Shown in pieces: positions 5,810-23,199 of a stretch of 32,058 nucleotides of DNA. The first letter of the stretch is position 1. Each line of letters begins with the position of its first letter. The stretch comes from a virus. The translations under genes were made by a program, and so were the position numbers. A model generated the notes under the pieces. That model was not told where the DNA came from. It saw only the letters and a list, made by a program, of their open reading frames with translations, and did not search any database. Location of the stretch: the IMG/VR virus record IMGVR_UViG_3300005608_000015, positions 1 through 32,058 of that record. One strand, written 5' to 3'.

Positions 5810-6229
5810 TCATTTCAAGTTAACTAAATCTTTTAGCTTCTTGATGTTTTTCTTATTGCTTAAAGTAATTTTAGCGCCGTTGTGTAGGGGTTTAGGAAAC
5901 TGTCCTATGTCTACCCATGCATATCCTGAACTTTCGTGATTAAGTGTAGGTACAAACTCTTTTGGTGTAATTATAGCATACGTGTAATATGTAAAACTTT
6001 TATCTTTTGAATGATATGTATCTAATGGATTTAAAGTTTCTATAGGCGGAACAAATCCCATTTCTTCTTGTAGTTCTCTTCGTAAAGCATCCATTGGTTG
6101 TTCGTCTTTTTCAATCTTACCTCCCCAAAAAGACCATGTATATGGGTAACTAACTTTGCCACTTCTTAAATTTAAGAGCATTCTGTTAGTGCTTTTAACG
6201 ACAAATGTGGTTCCTACTGCTTTATACAT
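5810..6229 (-). CDS. Nudix hydrolase
   Basis: A 139-residue Nudix pyrophosphohydrolase. Residues 37-59 hold the complete Nudix box Gx5Ex7REUxEExGU: G37, E43, R51-E52, E55-E56 and G58 are all present, so metal binding and hydrolysis should be intact. The substrate is not determined by the box. T4 NudE acts on ADP-ribose and related nucleotides, and the N-terminal TWSFWGGKIEKDE segment also recalls sugar-nucleotide hydrolases. I chose ATG at 6229 because AAGGTG stands 5-6 nt upstream; a GTG at 6235 would add two residues but overlaps that site. A strong sigma70-like promoter (6259-6287) lies upstream, so this gene is probably early although its neighbours are late. Confidence 0.9.
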   Translation of the reverse strand: MYKAVGTTFVVKSTNRMLLNLRSGKVSYPYTWSFWGGKIEKDEQPMDALRRELQEEMGFVPPIETLNPLDTYHSKDKSFTYYTYAIITPKEFVPTLNHESSGYAWVDIGQFPKPLHNGAKITLSNKKNIKKLKDLVNLK

Positions 6230-6258
6230 ATTCACCTTATTATTTTTATTACTTGTTT

Positions 6259-10748: not shown

Positions 10749-10800
10749 AGATTCGATACCTTTAAAGGTGAGTTGTATTCAGCTTTATTTGTGAAAAAAC

Positions 10801-17133: not shown

Positions 17134-17757
17134 ATGAAAACGTTTAAGCAATACCTAGCGGAAGCAGTCAAAGAAATTCCAGTTAGAATAAAAGTAGCAT
17201 CTGAAGTAACAGATGATATGATGAATACTATTGAGTCTGAATTACAAAGATATGATGTAGTTACAGTAGGCTCTCCACAAAAAACTATTATGCAAGAGCA
17301 TCCATTAGATTTTGGAACTAAAATTAGAAATGCAGAAGTGTTTATAATTGACGCTGTTATAAGAATGCCAATGAGTTTTGAAACGTTTAGAAGAAATTTA
17401 TCTGATAAAACGGGTATACCATATGATTACGTTGTAGTCAAAGGTGAGAACGATCCGTTAGAAGCAGAAAACGAAGCTGAGATTAAAAGAAACACAGCTA
17501 ACGCAGAAGACTATGAACCAAAGATAGGCCAAGAATATACTGACGAAGAAGGTAAAGTTGAAGGCGAACACTTTGGTGAAAAGCACAAAGAGAATTTTTT
17601 AAAGACTTTACAAGATAATAAAGAGAAAGATCCAGATAGAGCTGAGGTTACAGTTGAAGGACCATTAAGTCAAAAGAAAGCAGATGCACCAGCTGACAAT
17701 AGTCAGCCTAAAGAAAGCGAAGCATCAGCATCTCCTTTAACAAAGGACAACAGATAA
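17134..17757 (+). CDS. Putative internal head protein with capsid-targeting peptide
   Basis: A 207-residue protein. I start it at ATG 17134, since an upstream in-frame ATG at 17080 lies within gp16 and before the late promoter. The first 11 residues, MKTFKQYLAEA, closely resemble the capsid-targeting sequence of T4 internal proteins (MKTYQEFIAEA) and hold a gp21 cleavage site LAE/A; gp23 of this phage has the same YLAE/A. A folded part follows (about 12-110, with IPVRIKVASEVTDDMMNTIESEL and RNLSDKTGIPYDYVVVKGEN), then an acidic, Glu/Lys-rich disordered tail. By analogy with T4 it would be packed into the prohead core and clipped by gp21. Its function after injection or inside the head is unknown. 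Confidence 0.7.
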   Translation: MKTFKQYLAEAVKEIPVRIKVASEVTDDMMNTIESELQRYDVVTVGSPQKTIMQEHPLDFGTKIRNAEVFIIDAVIRMPMSFETFRRNLSDKTGIPYDYVVVKGENDPLEAENEAEIKRNTANAEDYEPKIGQEYTDEEGKVEGEHFGEKHKENFLKTLQDNKEKDPDRAEVTVEGPLSQKKADAPADNSQPKESEASASPLTKDNR

Positions 17758-18242
17758 TGGAGCCTAAAGTTCAGAAGTATTCAGTACACGTGAACGATCT
17801 TGGAGACTTTGATTTAGACGAAGATAGATCAATTGCACCATCAATTGAGTTTGCTCTTAAACAGGCAGGCATTGAAGCAACAGTTGATCAAAACGAATTT
17901 AATAGTTCTGGTGTAGAAGTTAGTACAACAGCTACAGCAGGCGAAGTTGAAACAGCTCTACAAAGAGATGAAATAGATGCAGAGGTATCAATTATGGAAG
18001 ACAACGAGCAATATGTAAAAACTGGTCCAGGTCATTTTAAACAAGATGACTTTACTACTTCAGTTAAAAAATCAAAGAAATTTAAATACGTTCCAGCAAA
18101 ACATGGTGACAATGGTTTAGCAAATGAAGATGAGCTAACCAAAGAAAAAGTCAAAGAGATGGAAGAACGCTTTGATAAGCTGATGGTAGAATACCAAGAG
18201 TTTATAGCTGAGTCATCAGATCAAAAAAAAAGACTGAAATAA
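17757..18242 (+). CDS. Unknown late protein, frame-0 product of a frameshift gene
   Basis: Read alone this is 161 residues, starting at an ATG that overlaps the previous stop (TAATGG). The first 100 residues contain two alpha/beta segments (QKYSVHVNDLGDFDLDEDRSIAPSI and STTATAGEVETALQRDEIDAEVSI) that resemble the start of the preceding protein in style; the rest is charged and helical. Residues 146-152 are YQEFIAE, identical to the core of the T4 internal-protein targeting and cleavage peptide. Four codons later the sequence runs into nine A residues (18223-18231), and the frame closes at TAA 18240-18242, while the -1 frame stays open to 18802. I see no catalytic motif. Confidence 0.65.
   Translation: MEPKVQKYSVHVNDLGDFDLDEDRSIAPSIEFALKQAGIEATVDQNEFNSSGVEVSTTATAGEVETALQRDEIDAEVSIMEDNEQYVKTGPGHFKQDDFTTSVKKSKKFKYVPAKHGDNGLANEDELTKEKVKEMEERFDKLMVEYQEFIAESSDQKKRLK
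18223..18231 (+). promoter_or_regulatory. Candidate -1 ribosomal frameshift site (A9 run)
   Basis: Zero-frame codons are CAA AAA AAA AGA, so the heptamer A AAA AAA (18224-18230) fits the X XXY YYZ rule. Slippage by -1 joins the upstream frame to an open frame of 190 codons. I see no strong stimulatory hairpin or upstream Shine-Dalgarno sequence. Confidence 0.5.
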
Positions 18243-18802
18243 GCGAAGCTCCATTTACCCAGCCAACAGGCAGTGCGGCGAATACACCTGCACCGACTCC
18301 TACATCAAACGCCATTGGCGATGAAGAAAAAAAGCAGGCAAGATCTAGATCACAAGACGCAATAACAAACGTTATTTCCAGAGACTATAATGACCTCATA
18401 AAGAAAAGAGGTATAGCTAAAAATGATCCTATGTTCCAAAAAGCAATTGGACAAATTTTTTCAATTGGCACAGGACAAAGAAACAAAGGCAAAATTATCA
18501 CAGTAGGTGACGTTGATGATGTTGCTAGAAGTATCAGACAAACTAAATCAGGAATAGGTCCTATAAGAACAGGCAAACAAGATGTTGGCCTAATTAAAAA
18601 AGTATTAGGCAGATTACCATCAGGTGAACCTTTCGCAGGGTTAGAAGACATGATTAATACACCAGAAGATGCTGAGAAGTTTATGAAGATTAGAGATTTA
18701 AGCCTTGACATTTTAAACACAATCAGTACAGAGAGAAAACTGAGAGGATTGGCAGACTTACCTAATGCCTTTGATGATTTTGAACGTTCAGTAACTGGAT
18801 AA
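18230..18802 (+). CDS. -1 frame extension of the 17757 gene
   Basis: This frame is open from 18212 to 18802 but has no credible start: the first ATG is at 18431, deep inside coding-like sequence and without a ribosome-binding site. From the A9 run it reads through a Pro/Thr-rich linker (TEISEAPFTQPTGSAANTPAPTPTS) into a folded region (ITNVISRDYNDLIKKRGIAK, GQIFSIGTGQRNKGKIITVGDVDDVARSI, LIKKVLGRLPSGEPFAGLEDMI). Joined to the upstream frame it would make a protein of about 348 residues. Either programmed -1 frameshifting, a real indel, or a sequencing error in the homopolymer would explain the layout. I do not recognise the family. Confidence 0.6.
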   Translation, partial: KTEISEAPFTQPTGSAANTPAPTPTSNAIGDEEKKQARSRSQDAITNVISRDYNDLIKKRGIAKNDPMFQKAIGQIFSIGTGQRNKGKIITVGDVDDVARSIRQTKSGIGPIRTGKQDVGLIKKVLGRLPSGEPFAGLEDMINTPEDAEKFMKIRDLSLDILNTISTERKLRGLADLPNAFDDFERSVTG

Positions 18803-18817
18803 TTAAAAGATTCTATC

Positions 18818-20137
18818 GTGAAAAATATTTCACACATTAAAAATGAGTTAGACGAAATATCGCCAAGTTTTTGTGCGGCCAAATGGCAACAGGTAACTTT
18901 ACATTTACAAAATGGTCATACTCATAGTTGTCACCATCCACAAACTCATAAAATACCTTTGGAGGAAATAGAAAAAGATCCTTCAGCATTGCATAATACT
19001 GAGTACAAGAAACAACAACGTAAATTAATGTTAGAAGGCAAACGTCCTGAAGAATGTAGTTACTGTTGGAAAGTAGAAGATACCGAAGGTGCTCACTTCA
19101 GTGACAGGATTAAAAAAAGCAGTAGCTCGTGGGCTAGAAAAAATATACAGACAATAGCTAAACAAGATTGGAACTACAACACAGTACCAACACACGTTGA
19201 AGTCAGTTTTTCAAATGTGTGTAATATGAAATGCATTTATTGTAGTCCTGTGTTTAGTAGTGAATGGTGGAGTGAAATAAATCAACATGGTGGATATCCT
19301 ACCAGCGATCAGTTTAACAATTTAGACTGGATCATGGAAACAAGTAGAACACCGTATTTGAAAAGAGAACACAACCCATACATAGAAGCATGGTGGAAGT
19401 GGTGGCCCACTATCAAAGATAAACTTCATGTTTTACGTGTGACCGGTGGTGAACCTTTTTTAAGCAAGGACACAGCCAAGCTGATAAGTGACATCAAAAC
19501 AGGAGGGTGTGAACAATTGGACTTGCACATCAACAGTAATCTACAAATACCTTTTTGGAAACTAAACAGTTATCTGAATGACATATCCAAATTAAAAGAA
19601 GAGCAACTTATAAAAGATGCAAAAATTTTTACCAGCTGTGATGCACATGGAGAACAAGCAGAGTATATCAGAGAAGGTATGGAATACGAAACATGGTTAA
19701 ACAACTGTAAAAAGGTGCTTAAACGCGGTATATCCTTGCATATAATGGTGACAGCAAATGTTCTGAGCATTGATAGTATGAAACTGTTAATGACGGATAT
19801 ATACCGCTTAAAACAGGATTATAAGGCGGTTACGTACGGGGTCAGCATATTAAACAGTCCTAAGTTTTTAAATGTATTGAACTTGCCCAAAACCAAATAT
19901 TGGATAGAAAAGTTCGATGAGCTAGTTGAATATGTGTCTGAACATCCACTTACAGAAAATAACGAGCTGAATTATATACAACGGTTAAGGAACTATTTTG
20001 TTAACAACGAAGTTAATAACAAAGACTTCACAGTGAACAGAGTAGACTGTCTTAAATTTATCCAAGAAATTGACCGCAGACGTAATAAAAATTTTACTAA
20101 TACATTTACTAACTACAAGTTTCTAATACACACCTAA
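18818..20137 (+). CDS. Radical SAM protein with N-terminal twitch-like domain
   Basis: A 439-residue radical SAM enzyme. The cluster motif is CNMKCIYC (C135, C139, C142), followed by RVTGGEPFL near residue 208, the SAM-binding GGE motif. Unusually, an auxiliary-cluster region precedes the core: C19, C38, C80 and C83 in the context NGHTHSCHH, PLEEI and GKRPEECSYC, which is the SPASM/twitch pattern normally found after the barrel. Such N-terminal-twitch enzymes occur in other marine phage genomes; their substrate is unknown. The start is GTG at 18818, with no Shine-Dalgarno site; GTGAAA and TTTCAC around the start form a small inverted repeat. Two such enzymes lie in tandem here. Confidence 0.85.
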   Translation: MKNISHIKNELDEISPSFCAAKWQQVTLHLQNGHTHSCHHPQTHKIPLEEIEKDPSALHNTEYKKQQRKLMLEGKRPEECSYCWKVEDTEGAHFSDRIKKSSSSWARKNIQTIAKQDWNYNTVPTHVEVSFSNVCNMKCIYCSPVFSSEWWSEINQHGGYPTSDQFNNLDWIMETSRTPYLKREHNPYIEAWWKWWPTIKDKLHVLRVTGGEPFLSKDTAKLISDIKTGGCEQLDLHINSNLQIPFWKLNSYLNDISKLKEEQLIKDAKIFTSCDAHGEQAEYIREGMEYETWLNNCKKVLKRGISLHIMVTANVLSIDSMKLLMTDIYRLKQDYKAVTYGVSILNSPKFLNVLNLPKTKYWIEKFDELVEYVSEHPLTENNELNYIQRLRNYFVNNEVNNKDFTVNRVDCLKFIQEIDRRRNKNFTNTFTNYKFLIHT

Positions 20138-20175
20138 AAACGCATACAAGTAACTTTTTAAGTTAGCACATACGG

Positions 20176-20183
20176 TTTAAATA
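20176..20183 (+). promoter_or_regulatory. Late promoter TTTAAATA, leaderless
   Basis: TTTAAATA, CAACT, ATG at 20189. No Shine-Dalgarno site; the second radical SAM gene is therefore probably late. Confidence 0.63.
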
Positions 20184-20188
20184 CAACT

Positions 20189-21280
20189 ATGTATAATTTA
20201 CTAAAGCCAACAGATATAAAAATACTAGAAATTGAAGGTTCTTCATATTGCAATGCAGGTTGTCCTTACTGTGCTAGACACTTACCTGGAACTAGTATTC
20301 GCGACACTGGATTTACACAAACACATCTAACGTTAGACGTATTTAAAAAAGCTGTATCTGATCTTGGAAATCATGCACACAATATGGAATGCTGGTTTGT
20401 TGGAAACTTAGGTGATGCAATAATGAATCCAGACATATTATCAATGTGGCAAATAGCTGTTAATAGTTTCAAGTCTTGCGAAATAGAAACTAATGGCGGA
20501 TTACGATCAAAAGAATTTTGGAAGCAGATGGGAGAAGTTGGATATCAAGCTAACAAAAAAAATGACACCAACAGTAACATAATAACATTTTCAATTGATG
20601 GACTAGAAGATACTAACGAAATTTATAGAAAGAAAGTTAATTGGAATAAGTTGACAGACAACATTAAATCTTATATTGATGCTGGTGGTACTGCTCACTG
20701 GAAATGGTTAACGTTTGAACACAACGAACATCAAATAGAAGAAGCAAAAGCACTTGCAAAAAGTTTAGGATTTAGAAAATTTATAACAACACATTCTACA
20801 AGATATGCAGAGCAACAAAAAGAAAAAGAATTTTATGATAAATTAAGCGATGATCAAAGAACAGTTGGACTTAAATCAGATATTGAAAAAATTGTTGAAC
20901 AAAAACTTAATGAAGTTGATTATTACAAAGAAGAAAAAATGATAAGCTGTAAAAATTTAAAAACAAAAAGAATGTATTTAAATGCAAAAGGAAAAGTTTG
21001 GCCTTGTTGTTGGCATTCGGCCAAATACGACAAGTATGATGACTTACGAGAAATGGATACAGCGTTGATAAAATATTACAAAGATGGATTTAATGATTTA
21101 GCTACAAGAAGTCTACAAGAAATTTTTAGTTCTCAAGCATGGGTAGATTTAACAGGCAGTTGGGAAACATCAGCAATTAATAAAAATACACCGTTTCAGT
21201 TGTGTGCAAAAAAATGCAAAAATGATAAATGGCAAGCCACTTGTGCTATAAGACAACCTACCCAACATCTTCAAAGATAA
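20189..21280 (+). CDS. Radical SAM protein with C-terminal SPASM-type domain
   Basis: A 363-residue radical SAM enzyme in the usual domain order. CNAGCPYC (C21, C25, C28) binds the SAM cluster; EIETNGG and FSIDGLEDTNEIYR follow in the barrel. The C-terminal part holds auxiliary-cluster cysteines: SCKNLKTKRMYLNAKGKVWPC-CW, then LCAKKCKNDKWQATC. SPASM enzymes often modify peptides or proteins, so a polypeptide substrate is plausible, but no typical Cys-rich or leader-type precursor peptide is visible nearby. It has its own leaderless late promoter. The only small gene next door is the Usg-like protein. Confidence 0.87.
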   Translation: MYNLLKPTDIKILEIEGSSYCNAGCPYCARHLPGTSIRDTGFTQTHLTLDVFKKAVSDLGNHAHNMECWFVGNLGDAIMNPDILSMWQIAVNSFKSCEIETNGGLRSKEFWKQMGEVGYQANKKNDTNSNIITFSIDGLEDTNEIYRKKVNWNKLTDNIKSYIDAGGTAHWKWLTFEHNEHQIEEAKALAKSLGFRKFITTHSTRYAEQQKEKEFYDKLSDDQRTVGLKSDIEKIVEQKLNEVDYYKEEKMISCKNLKTKRMYLNAKGKVWPCCWHSAKYDKYDDLREMDTALIKYYKDGFNDLATRSLQEIFSSQAWVDLTGSWETSAINKNTPFQLCAKKCKNDKWQATCAIRQPTQHLQR

Positions 21281-21312
21281 CTTAACACATCATATAAATT
21301 TTTTACTAAAAG

Positions 21313-21320
21313 TTTAAATA
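21313..21320 (+). promoter_or_regulatory. Late promoter TTTAAATA, leaderless, for the Usg-like gene
   Basis: TTTAAATA, five T, ATG at 21326. No Shine-Dalgarno sequence. Confidence 0.63.
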
Positions 21321-21325
21321 TTTTT

Positions 21326-21574
21326 ATGATACTGTTTCCAGAAAGAGTAACAACACTTAAAATATATTATTGGATGCCAGATTATAACAACATCCTACAA
21401 CTTTTTATGTGGCAGTTTAATGACATACCACCTGAGTTTAAAAAAGCTCATAAGTTTTTAAATCACTGGCACAACAACGTTGATGCAGTTATTGAAGAAG
21501 TACTTCTTGCACATTCTGGAAAATATAAGCAAGTAGAATTCAATCCAGTTGACGAAATATTTAAACTTCATTAA
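21326..21574 (+). CDS. Usg-like protein
   Basis: An 82-residue protein. The stretch VTTLKIYYWMPDYNNILQLF, then MWQFNDIPPEFKKAHKFLNHWHNNVDAVIEEVLLAH, follows the pattern of the alphaproteobacterial Usg family (…YxMPDxxxxLQxFVWQxxDxAPxFPxLxxFLxFW…VxVAH) as I recall it. Usg proteins are small conserved proteins of unknown function. A phage copy is noteworthy and points to an alphaproteobacterial host lineage. It has its own leaderless late promoter and lies between the second radical SAM gene and gp17, so it could act with either. Confidence 0.72.
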   Translation: MILFPERVTTLKIYYWMPDYNNILQLFMWQFNDIPPEFKKAHKFLNHWHNNVDAVIEEVLLAHSGKYKQVEFNPVDEIFKLH

Positions 21575-21581
21575 ATACGTA

Positions 21582-21589
21582 TATAAATA
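21582..21589 (+). promoter_or_regulatory. Late promoter TATAAATA, leaderless, for gp17
   Basis: Exact late consensus, then CAGTT and the ATG at 21595. A second TTAAATA lies a few bases upstream (21571). Confidence 0.75.
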
Positions 21590-21594
21590 CAGTT

Positions 21595-23199
21595 ATGGTA
21601 AGAAAAAGTTTAGAAGGTAATCTGACTAAAAGGGCTTATTCTAAGTCTACATATGATGATAAGAAGATACTTGATTTAAAGAAATGTGCCGATAAGCAAC
21701 ACGGATATCTTTATTTTATGGAAAACTTTATGTGGATTCAACATCCAACTAGAGGTAGATTAAAGTTTGAACCTTATGATTTTCAAAAGAGTTTATTAGA
21801 TACCTACAATAGTAATAGATTTGCAATCGCCATGTGTGCGAGGCAGACAGGTAAGACAACCTGTGCGGCAGGATATCTATTATGGTATGCAATGTTTCAT
21901 CCTGATGTCTTAATATTAATTGCGGCACACAAATATCAAGGTGCACAAGACATCATGCAACGTGTGAGATTTGCATATGAAGAAACACCTGATTATATTA
22001 GATGTGGTGTAACAAGTTATAATAAAGGATCGATGGATTTTGACAACGGTTCGAGAATCATAGCACAAACAACTACAGAAACAACTGGTAGAGGTATGTC
22101 TATATCACTAGTATACATGGATGAGTTTGCTTTTGTTGAACCACAACAAAAAGCTAATGAGTTTTGGACTTCCTTATCTCCTACATTATCAACAGGTGGT
22201 AAATGTATTATTACATCAACACCAAATAACGATGATGATGTTTTTGCAGGACTGTGGAGAGGTGCAAACAAACGTGTTGACGAGTTTGGTCAGCCAACTA
22301 GAGATGGTACTGGTATAAATGGTTTCAAAGCAATTGGTGTTCATTGGAGCGAACATCCAGATAGAGATGAACAATGGGCAAAAGATGAAAGAGCAAGAAT
22401 TGGTGAAGAAAGATTTAGACGTGAACATGATTGTGAGTTCATTGCGTTTGATGAAACATTAATTGACGGATTAAAATTAGTTTCATTAGCAGGTAAAGAT
22501 CCTTTATATAAGACAGGACAAGTACGTTGGTATGAAAGACCTAAAAAAGGTCAAACATACGTGGCGGCACTTGATCCAAGTTTAGGTACAGGCGGAGACT
22601 TTGCGGCAATACAAGTTTATAGTGTGCCTGAATTAAAACAAGTTGCCGAATGGCAACATAATAAAACTTCTATACAAGGCCAGGTCAGGGCGTTGTTAGG
22701 TATATTAAAAGAGTTAGATAGCAATTTAAAAGAACAAGGATCACAGTCACCTGAAATATATTGGACAGTTGAGAACAATGCATTGGGTGAAGGAGCCATT
22801 GTAGCCATTGAAGAAATGGATGAAGCTAGATTTCCTGGATTCTTTTTACATGAACCAAGACGTGCAGGACAACAAAGAAGAGATGTTCACAAACGTAAAG
22901 GTTATAACACAACACACAAAGCAAAAATAACAGCTTGTAGTAAACTAAAACATTATGTTGAAACAGGTAAGATGACACTTAATAGTAGAAATTTAATTAG
23001 AGAATTAAAGTTGTTTGTAGCCAGAGGTAATTCTTTCTCTGCTAAAATAGGTGAGAACGATGACCTAGTATCAGCAACATTACTTTGTTGTAGACTAGTA
23101 GCATACCTGGCCAAATATGATCCTGTATTTGAGCAAAGTTTAGGAGAAGAAGGTGATCCTGATCAGGACAATATGACACCAATGCCAATGATTATATAA
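21595..23199 (+). CDS. 17: Terminase large subunit gp17
   Basis: The 534-residue packaging motor. Walker A is ARQTGKTT (residues 82-89), Walker B lies in SLVYMDEFAFVE (about 168-179), and CIITSTPN is the coupling motif. The C-terminal nuclease domain begins near AALDPSLGTGGDFAAIQVY (about 325), with its first catalytic Asp, and continues through WTVENNALGEGAI and KIGENDDLVSATLLCCRL near the end. It pumps DNA through the portal and cuts concatemers with gp16. Its length is somewhat shorter than T4 gp17 (610). The ATG lies 5 nt after a perfect late promoter and without a Shine-Dalgarno site. Confidence 0.97.
   Translation: MVRKSLEGNLTKRAYSKSTYDDKKILDLKKCADKQHGYLYFMENFMWIQHPTRGRLKFEPYDFQKSLLDTYNSNRFAIAMCARQTGKTTCAAGYLLWYAMFHPDVLILIAAHKYQGAQDIMQRVRFAYEETPDYIRCGVTSYNKGSMDFDNGSRIIAQTTTETTGRGMSISLVYMDEFAFVEPQQKANEFWTSLSPTLSTGGKCIITSTPNNDDDVFAGLWRGANKRVDEFGQPTRDGTGINGFKAIGVHWSEHPDRDEQWAKDERARIGEERFRREHDCEFIAFDETLIDGLKLVSLAGKDPLYKTGQVRWYERPKKGQTYVAALDPSLGTGGDFAAIQVYSVPELKQVAEWQHNKTSIQGQVRALLGILKELDSNLKEQGSQSPEIYWTVENNALGEGAIVAIEEMDEARFPGFFLHEPRRAGQQRRDVHKRKGYNTTHKAKITACSKLKHYVETGKMTLNSRNLIRELKLFVARGNSFSAKIGENDDLVSATLLCCRLVAYLAKYDPVFEQSLGEEGDPDQDNMTPMPMII

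Follow-up and report, generated by a model that had tools for sequence, protein, structure and literature searches.

The DNA that we analyzed, referred to here as the window, was a 32,058-nucleotide stretch (positions 1 to 32,058 of IMG/VR record IMGVR_UViG_3300005608_000015) from a marine T4-like bacterial virus that has not been cultured. The window either formed part of a 107-kb contig (G001) or matched it exactly wherever the two were compared. An initial annotation described a pair of radical SAM genes and a Usg-like gene that were located between the small and large terminase genes and had no obvious peptide precursor nearby. The genes themselves were confirmed: positions 18818 to 20137, 20189 to 21280, and 21326 to 21574 contained three intact ORFs on the plus strand, each with a family match, immediately upstream of the large terminase gene TerL (21595 to 23199, plus strand; family match). 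TerL and a variable gene at 18431 to 18802 (plus strand) formed the downstream and upstream borders, respectively, of a region that we refer to as the slot. The gaps around the trio genes were 15, 51, 45, and 20 bases, and no precursor-sized ORF fit into any of them, in agreement with the annotation. An adjacent precursor peptide gene, which would identify a RiPP maturation system, was not found at the slot, and the small protein next to the enzymes was not fixed among relatives.

The placement between two terminase genes was not supported. The upstream border gene (18431 to 18802) matched no family in NCBIfam, Pfam, or PHROGs, was only 27 to 38% identical or was undetected in relatives beyond the closest ones, and had no counterpart in the relatives that carried Usg before TerL. 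In addition, no small-terminase annotation was found beside TerL in the examined cultured phages that were closest by TerL. The correct placement of the trio is directly ahead of the large terminase gene. A separate feature of the border gene was its reading frame, which was open upstream, past the stop codon of the gene at 17757 to 18242, to an A9 run in that preceding gene (window positions 18222 to 18802). The run (C AAA AAA AAA G) was in register for a -1 slip and was present in the window and in the relatives L003 and L002; no start codon was located between the run and the 18431 frame in the window and L003. These features suggested that 18431 to 18802 is possibly a -1 frameshift product of 17757 to 18242, in which case the fusion would be 348 aa in the window and 329 aa in L003.

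The first gene of the trio (18818 to 20137) had a GTG start and encoded a 439-aa protein that matched NF033640, the "twitch domain-containing radical SAM" family (N_Twi_rSAM), with a score of 299.8 bits (cut-off, 170) over model positions 1 to 395 of 398. Four cysteines located before the CxxxCxxC motif (C19, C38, C80, and C83) were invariant in an alignment of 30 viral relatives, as were the CxxxCxxC cysteines themselves (C135, C139, and C142; 30 sequences). Thus, the protein resembled NF033640 members in its full-length match and in the N-terminal twitch cysteine set ahead of the barrel, but the window copy was located in a TerL-adjacent slot rather than in a sugar island. No homolog was found in cultured phages at an E value of 1e-5, and none of the 14 cellular control genomes had a member of the twitch family above the cut-off.

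The second gene (20189 to 21280) encoded a 363-aa protein that exceeded the Pfam cut-offs for Radical_SAM (35.6 versus 29.5 bits) and SPASM (22.0 versus 21.5 bits). The CxxxCxxC motif and the cysteines C254, C273, C274, C339, and C343 were invariant in an alignment of 14 viral relatives. The two alignments agreed with the initial annotation in placing the putative auxiliary-cluster cysteines before the barrel in one enzyme and after it in the other. In its CxxxCxxC barrel and C-terminal SPASM cysteines, the second enzyme was like the SPASM maturases (SkfB, SuiB, anSME, and TIGR04317), and its partial NCBIfam matches were mostly to maturases. In contrast to those enzymes, it was far below every equivalog cut-off and had no precursor peptide nearby. 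For example, TIGR04317 (tungsten cofactor oxidoreductase maturase) gave 56 bits against a cut-off of 380, and the known radical SAM equivalogs that were compared (MoaA, HxsC, the W maturase, and others) were all far below their cut-offs. Homologs in cultured phages were limited to distant Campylobacter phage matches (E value of 1e-5). Only two relatives, with 20 to 21% identity, were found in cellular genome contigs, so the cellular context gave no substrate.

These comparisons bear on the idea that the two enzymes are auxiliary metabolic genes that strengthen a pathway of the host (related to cofactors, nucleotides, or Fe-S) and that their proximity to TerL is incidental. Radical SAM genes of marine viruses were treated as Fe-S-related auxiliary genes in the accessible part of an earlier study (PMC5332604), and we found Fe-S carrier genes in two related large contigs. 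However, no metabolic radical SAM equivalog was matched above its cut-off, the cellular controls lacked twitch family members above the cut-off, the only cellular SPASM relatives were the two distant ones, and the putative promoters described below were of the late type. We therefore considered a metabolic role to be unlikely.

A PDB sequence search with the twitch and SPASM proteins yielded no match for either one. The structure model of the twitch protein (pLDDT of 92) had a mixed set of nearest solved structures, namely, the peptide maturases SkfB (Z score of 14.2) and SuiB (Z score of 12.7), the nucleoside-sugar enzyme BlsE (Z score of 13.7), and viperin. The resemblance of this model to SkfB and SuiB, together with the fact that SPASM domains are common among peptide maturases and dominate the partial matches of the second enzyme, would fit a scheme in which both proteins are RiPP-like peptide or protein maturases that directly modify a virion protein (terminase, head, or tail) or the small protein next to them, with no glycan involved. 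However, SkfB was tied with BlsE, an enzyme whose substrate is a sugar nucleoside, and the gaps lacked a precursor ORF. The predicted fold does not decide between a peptide and a sugar.

Both enzyme genes were under purifying selection. Relative to the L003 copies, dN/dS was 0.04 for the twitch gene and ~0.2 for the SPASM gene, which argues that both enzymes function; the SPASM gene evolves faster than the twitch gene. The SPASM gene was 81% identical to the L003 copy, compared with 95 to 96% for the adjacent genes, and 79% identical to the L025 copy, while the twitch protein was only 63% identical to that of L025. These identities indicated that the SPASM gene was exchanged separately. The content of the slot differed from phage to phage, as described below, which is what would be expected if the enzymes were passengers that lack a late function and were kept by chance. 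This reading was disfavored by the purifying selection on both genes, the retention of all cluster cysteines, and the conservation of the promoters, and we regarded it as the least probable of the explanations considered here.

The third gene (21326 to 21574) encoded an 82-aa protein that matched the Pfam family PF06233 (Usg) at 67.4 bits against a cut-off of 27 and over profile positions 6 to 80 of 80; its dN/dS was 0.05. The protein was ~37 to 39% identical to plasmid-borne Usg of alphaproteobacteria. Among the plasmid matches that were listed by genus, the genera were alphaproteobacterial, and Caulobacter was the only 1 of the 14 control genomes with a Usg family match. It is a reasonable inference that the host of the phage is an alphaproteobacterium. 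Cellular Usg genes adjoin trp genes. The protein in the window shared the above-cut-off match and the identity noted above with its alphaproteobacterial counterparts, but phage copies adjoined TerL or other structural genes. Specifically, the neighbors of phage Usg genes were TerL, major capsid and tube-like genes (L163 and L165), or, in another type of phage, other genes (L125 and L141). Searches for a Usg homolog in cultured phages yielded nothing, even at an E value of 1, and a PDB sequence search yielded nothing meaningful. The AlphaFold model (pLDDT of 84) had no Foldseek match in the PDB below 0.001; it matched one viral structure that was already annotated as "Usg-like." Assignments to the p56, Dmd, or ERH fold were considered and rejected because Z scores of 5 to 6 were too weak. 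The Usg-like protein emerged as a separate, widespread small protein that is encoded in the structural module of phages.

In several relatives (L025:7611-8045, L034:7546-7980, L039:7549-7980, and others), an unrelated 144-aa protein was found before TerL in the place of Usg. This protein had no Pfam or PHROG match and was under strong purifying selection, with a dN/dS of ~0.04 among close copies. Usg and the 144-aa protein alternated, each preceded by a late promoter of the same type.

The initial annotation had proposed that two of the three genes have their own leaderless late promoter. An exact NNTAAATA-N5-ATG arrangement preceded the SPASM and Usg genes (starts at 20189 and 21326), and the box was TTTAAATA in both cases; the putative promoters, including the 5-base spacer up to the ATG, occupied positions 20176 to 20188 and 21313 to 21325 (plus strand). 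A TATAAATA-N5-ATG arrangement was located at the TerL start at 21595 (21582 to 21594, plus strand). Judged by motif, the starts at 20189, 21326, and 21595 were each closely preceded by a TATAAATA-like box, as in T4-type late promoters. A T4 late promoter sets the start of transcription at the position that is occupied here by the ATG, so the transcripts are predicted to be leaderless. In the window, 8 of the 35 TAAATA sites had an ATG at exactly +5, compared with 0.86 expected from other spacings (Poisson probability of ~4e-6, or ~1e-4 once corrected for 30 spacings). The eight gene starts with the leaderless NNTAAATA-N5-ATG pattern were 16100, 17134, 20189, 21326, 21595, and 23218, as well as 5784 and 10735 on the minus strand. 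Among slot-bearing relatives, the pattern was kept before nearly all starts of SPASM, Usg or the 144-aa protein, and TerL; it was never seen before the twitch gene, and the twitch gene of the window also had no late promoter of its own. Thus, the proposal stood for the SPASM and Usg genes, but the promoters did not single out the trio, since TerL and five other genes had them too. The promoters are a general feature of the phage and support late expression, although late transcription is read here from motifs. A study on pelagimyophages reported that attempts to predict middle and late promoters did not succeed (PMC7029224).

The content of the slot varied among relatives that were collected through TerL, twitch, SPASM, and Usg. 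Twitch, SPASM, and Usg genes were found together in the phage of the window and in L002, L003, L115, and L116. Other combinations were twitch and SPASM with the 144-aa protein (L025 to L027), twitch with the 144-aa protein (L034 and L039 to L041), SPASM with the 144-aa protein (L028 to L030, L036, and L037), and twitch and SPASM only (L038); the L031 locus stopped inside the SPASM gene. In 17 loci, Usg was located directly before TerL and no radical SAM genes were present. The TerL proteins of these loci were ~49 to 74% identical to that of the window, with L170 in two pieces at 41 to 50%. The results indicated that, in one clade of aquatic T4-like phages, the late module contains a variable cassette slot immediately before TerL. 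They ran against the view of the trio as a co-occurring set, as the three genes were mostly apart in relatives. A trio that works as a unit, with Usg as the obligate substrate or partner, was not supported by the same comparison, since Usg preceded TerL in 17 loci without the enzymes and the third gene was swapped or absent. For the scheme with peptide or protein maturases, this meant that the enzymes were kept when the third gene was replaced or, as in L038, missing, and that Usg was kept when the enzymes were missing.

The initial annotation did not mention paralogs of the enzymes. We found that both enzymes belonged to large phage families that were based in islands with sugar enzymes. Contig G001 carried 7 radical SAM genes, among them a twitch gene located in an island that has marker genes, and a related 328-kb contig (G010; locus L119) carried 22. 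The islands, including the one in G001, were arranged as a tail fiber-like gene, a small protein, three marker genes, and then radical SAM genes. Of the distant loci, 10 of 19 twitch loci had markers, and 41 of 71 SPASM loci had at least one of the four marker genes within ~7 kb; the remaining 9 twitch and 30 SPASM loci had no markers. Twitch homologs were also present in 48 of the 71 SPASM loci, and 54 of the 71 had twitch homologs or markers. In 48 TerL-region control loci, there were no markers and a single radical SAM match. Neighbors in islands and clusters that were confirmed with Pfam included dTDP-sugar epimerase, nucleotidyltransferase, NAD epimerase/GDP-mannose dehydratase, UDP-glucose/GDP-mannose dehydrogenase, O-carbamoyltransferase, and LacAB/RpiB isomerase.

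The marker genes themselves looked like glycosyltransferases by reading, but this assignment was not confirmed by Pfam, PHROGs (unnamed families only), or the PDB. Several radical SAM clusters (L119/G010, L183, L184, and L194) had carbamoyltransferase genes and UDP-glucose dehydrogenase-like genes; other genes there resembled those for an amidinotransferase and a 2OG-oxygenase, as judged by reading only. G010 also had an Fe-S carrier gene, and IscU/NifU_N was not found in the four contigs that were searched.

The trees indicated that the slot genes were related to island genes. All slot twitch genes formed one clade (support of 1.0), and the sister of this clade was an island copy (0.96). The slot SPASM genes, including that of L026, formed one clade as well (0.92), with the G001 gene at 10790, another gene of the same phage, as the sister (1.0). 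Given one slot clade per family, the simplest history is a single entry of each family into the slot, followed by loss or exchange. Two other SPASM clades were found among late genes. One was located in the late module between 15644-like and head closure-like genes (L049, L119, and L120), and its members in L119 and L120 had the leaderless promoter. The other was located between a NUDIX gene and a 5116-like gene, beside baseplate-region genes (L228 to L230 and L250). The window also has a NUDIX hydrolase gene (5810 to 6235, minus strand) among baseplate-region genes, and in relatives a SPASM gene is located right behind it.

The islands and the three sites of insertion bear on two further explanations. 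Radical SAM enzymes are known in phage thymidine hypermodification, and the position next to TerL and the carbamoyltransferase near radical SAM genes in G010 would fit enzymes that modify nucleic acid (DNA hypermodification or a change in RNA) in genomes that are about to be packaged. However, nucleotide modification genes were not found in the slot or the examined islands, where the neighbors were tail fiber-like and sugar genes, so we judged this explanation to be very improbable. Three insertions among structural genes and the late promoters would also be expected of the peptide or protein maturases discussed above. However, many members of the enzyme families were located beside sugar enzymes rather than virion genes. 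Taken with the structural comparisons and the swapping of the third gene, this left direct maturation of a virion protein or of the small neighbor as a possible but rather doubtful explanation.

The explanation that we prefer, tentatively and with somewhat less than even confidence, is that the slot holds a late cassette of tailoring enzymes that was relocated from a glycan island and that its target belongs to the virion or the cell surface, namely, a glycan, a glycoprotein, or a structural protein. The twitch and SPASM genes would have moved into the slot from families that are housed in islands with tail fiber-like genes and genes for nucleotide sugars and surface glycans. The SPASM gene and the third gene would be expressed from their own late promoters and the twitch gene probably by transcription that continues from upstream; synthesis of both enzymes would then coincide with virion assembly. 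Cleavage of SAM at a CxxxCxxC cluster, with the help of a twitch or SPASM cluster, is established for such families. Each enzyme would cleave SAM at its CxxxCxxC [4Fe-4S] cluster and then take a hydrogen atom from the substrate, and the predicted auxiliary cluster of the twitch or SPASM type may bind the substrate or accept an electron. The outcome could be an oxidation, an epimerization, a cross-link, or a similar change on a glycan, glycoprotein, or structural protein at the surface of the virion or infected cell. The Usg-like protein would be a separate small late protein, with a place before TerL that is independent of the radical SAM genes.

The late promoters, and the fact that such genes entered the late module repeatedly, suggest that the target is the assembling virion or the surface of the cell late in infection, and the origin in sugar islands points to a glycan or glycoprotein. 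The suggestion in the initial annotation that late expression hints at a virion protein or a late host target thus fit the promoters and the three late-module insertions, and the sugar islands added a glycan or glycoprotein to the candidates. The glycan link is suggested by neighboring sugar enzymes in a few islands. The late location could also be a convenient insertion site that has no bearing on the substrate.

It is known that marine phages carry radical SAM genes. In the accessible parts of earlier studies, 12 such genes were reported for the T4-like marine viral genome TARA_ERS488813_N000010 (PMC5332604), and pelagimyophages were reported to have radical SAM cassettes in their host recognition cluster (PMC7029224). 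The phages in those studies are like the one examined here in being marine and T4-like and in having many radical SAM genes, some beside tail fiber or host recognition genes. In contrast, the TerL-adjacent slot, the swapping of its genes, the shared origin of slot and island genes, and a contig with 22 radical SAM genes were not found described in the accessible parts. In a literature search that covered mostly papers outside subscription journals, we found no paper that names a function for phage radical SAM enzymes of this kind. A broader proposal, which we consider possible but less probable than the cassette itself, is that aquatic T4-like phages have a growing radical SAM toolkit that is specific to viruses, with as many as 22 genes (in the 328-kb contig), which installs radical-chemistry modifications on glycans or glycoproteins of the virion or cell surface and that its enzymes have repeatedly moved to the late module. 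The pair in the slot would then be the late-acting part of an undescribed virion modification system. Radical SAM enzymes do difficult chemistry, and abundant marine phages carry many copies of their genes. The presence of such genes with late promoters beside TerL, and of their kin in sugar islands of the same phage, leads to a testable prediction, namely, that virions or the surfaces of infected cells may carry unusual modifications.
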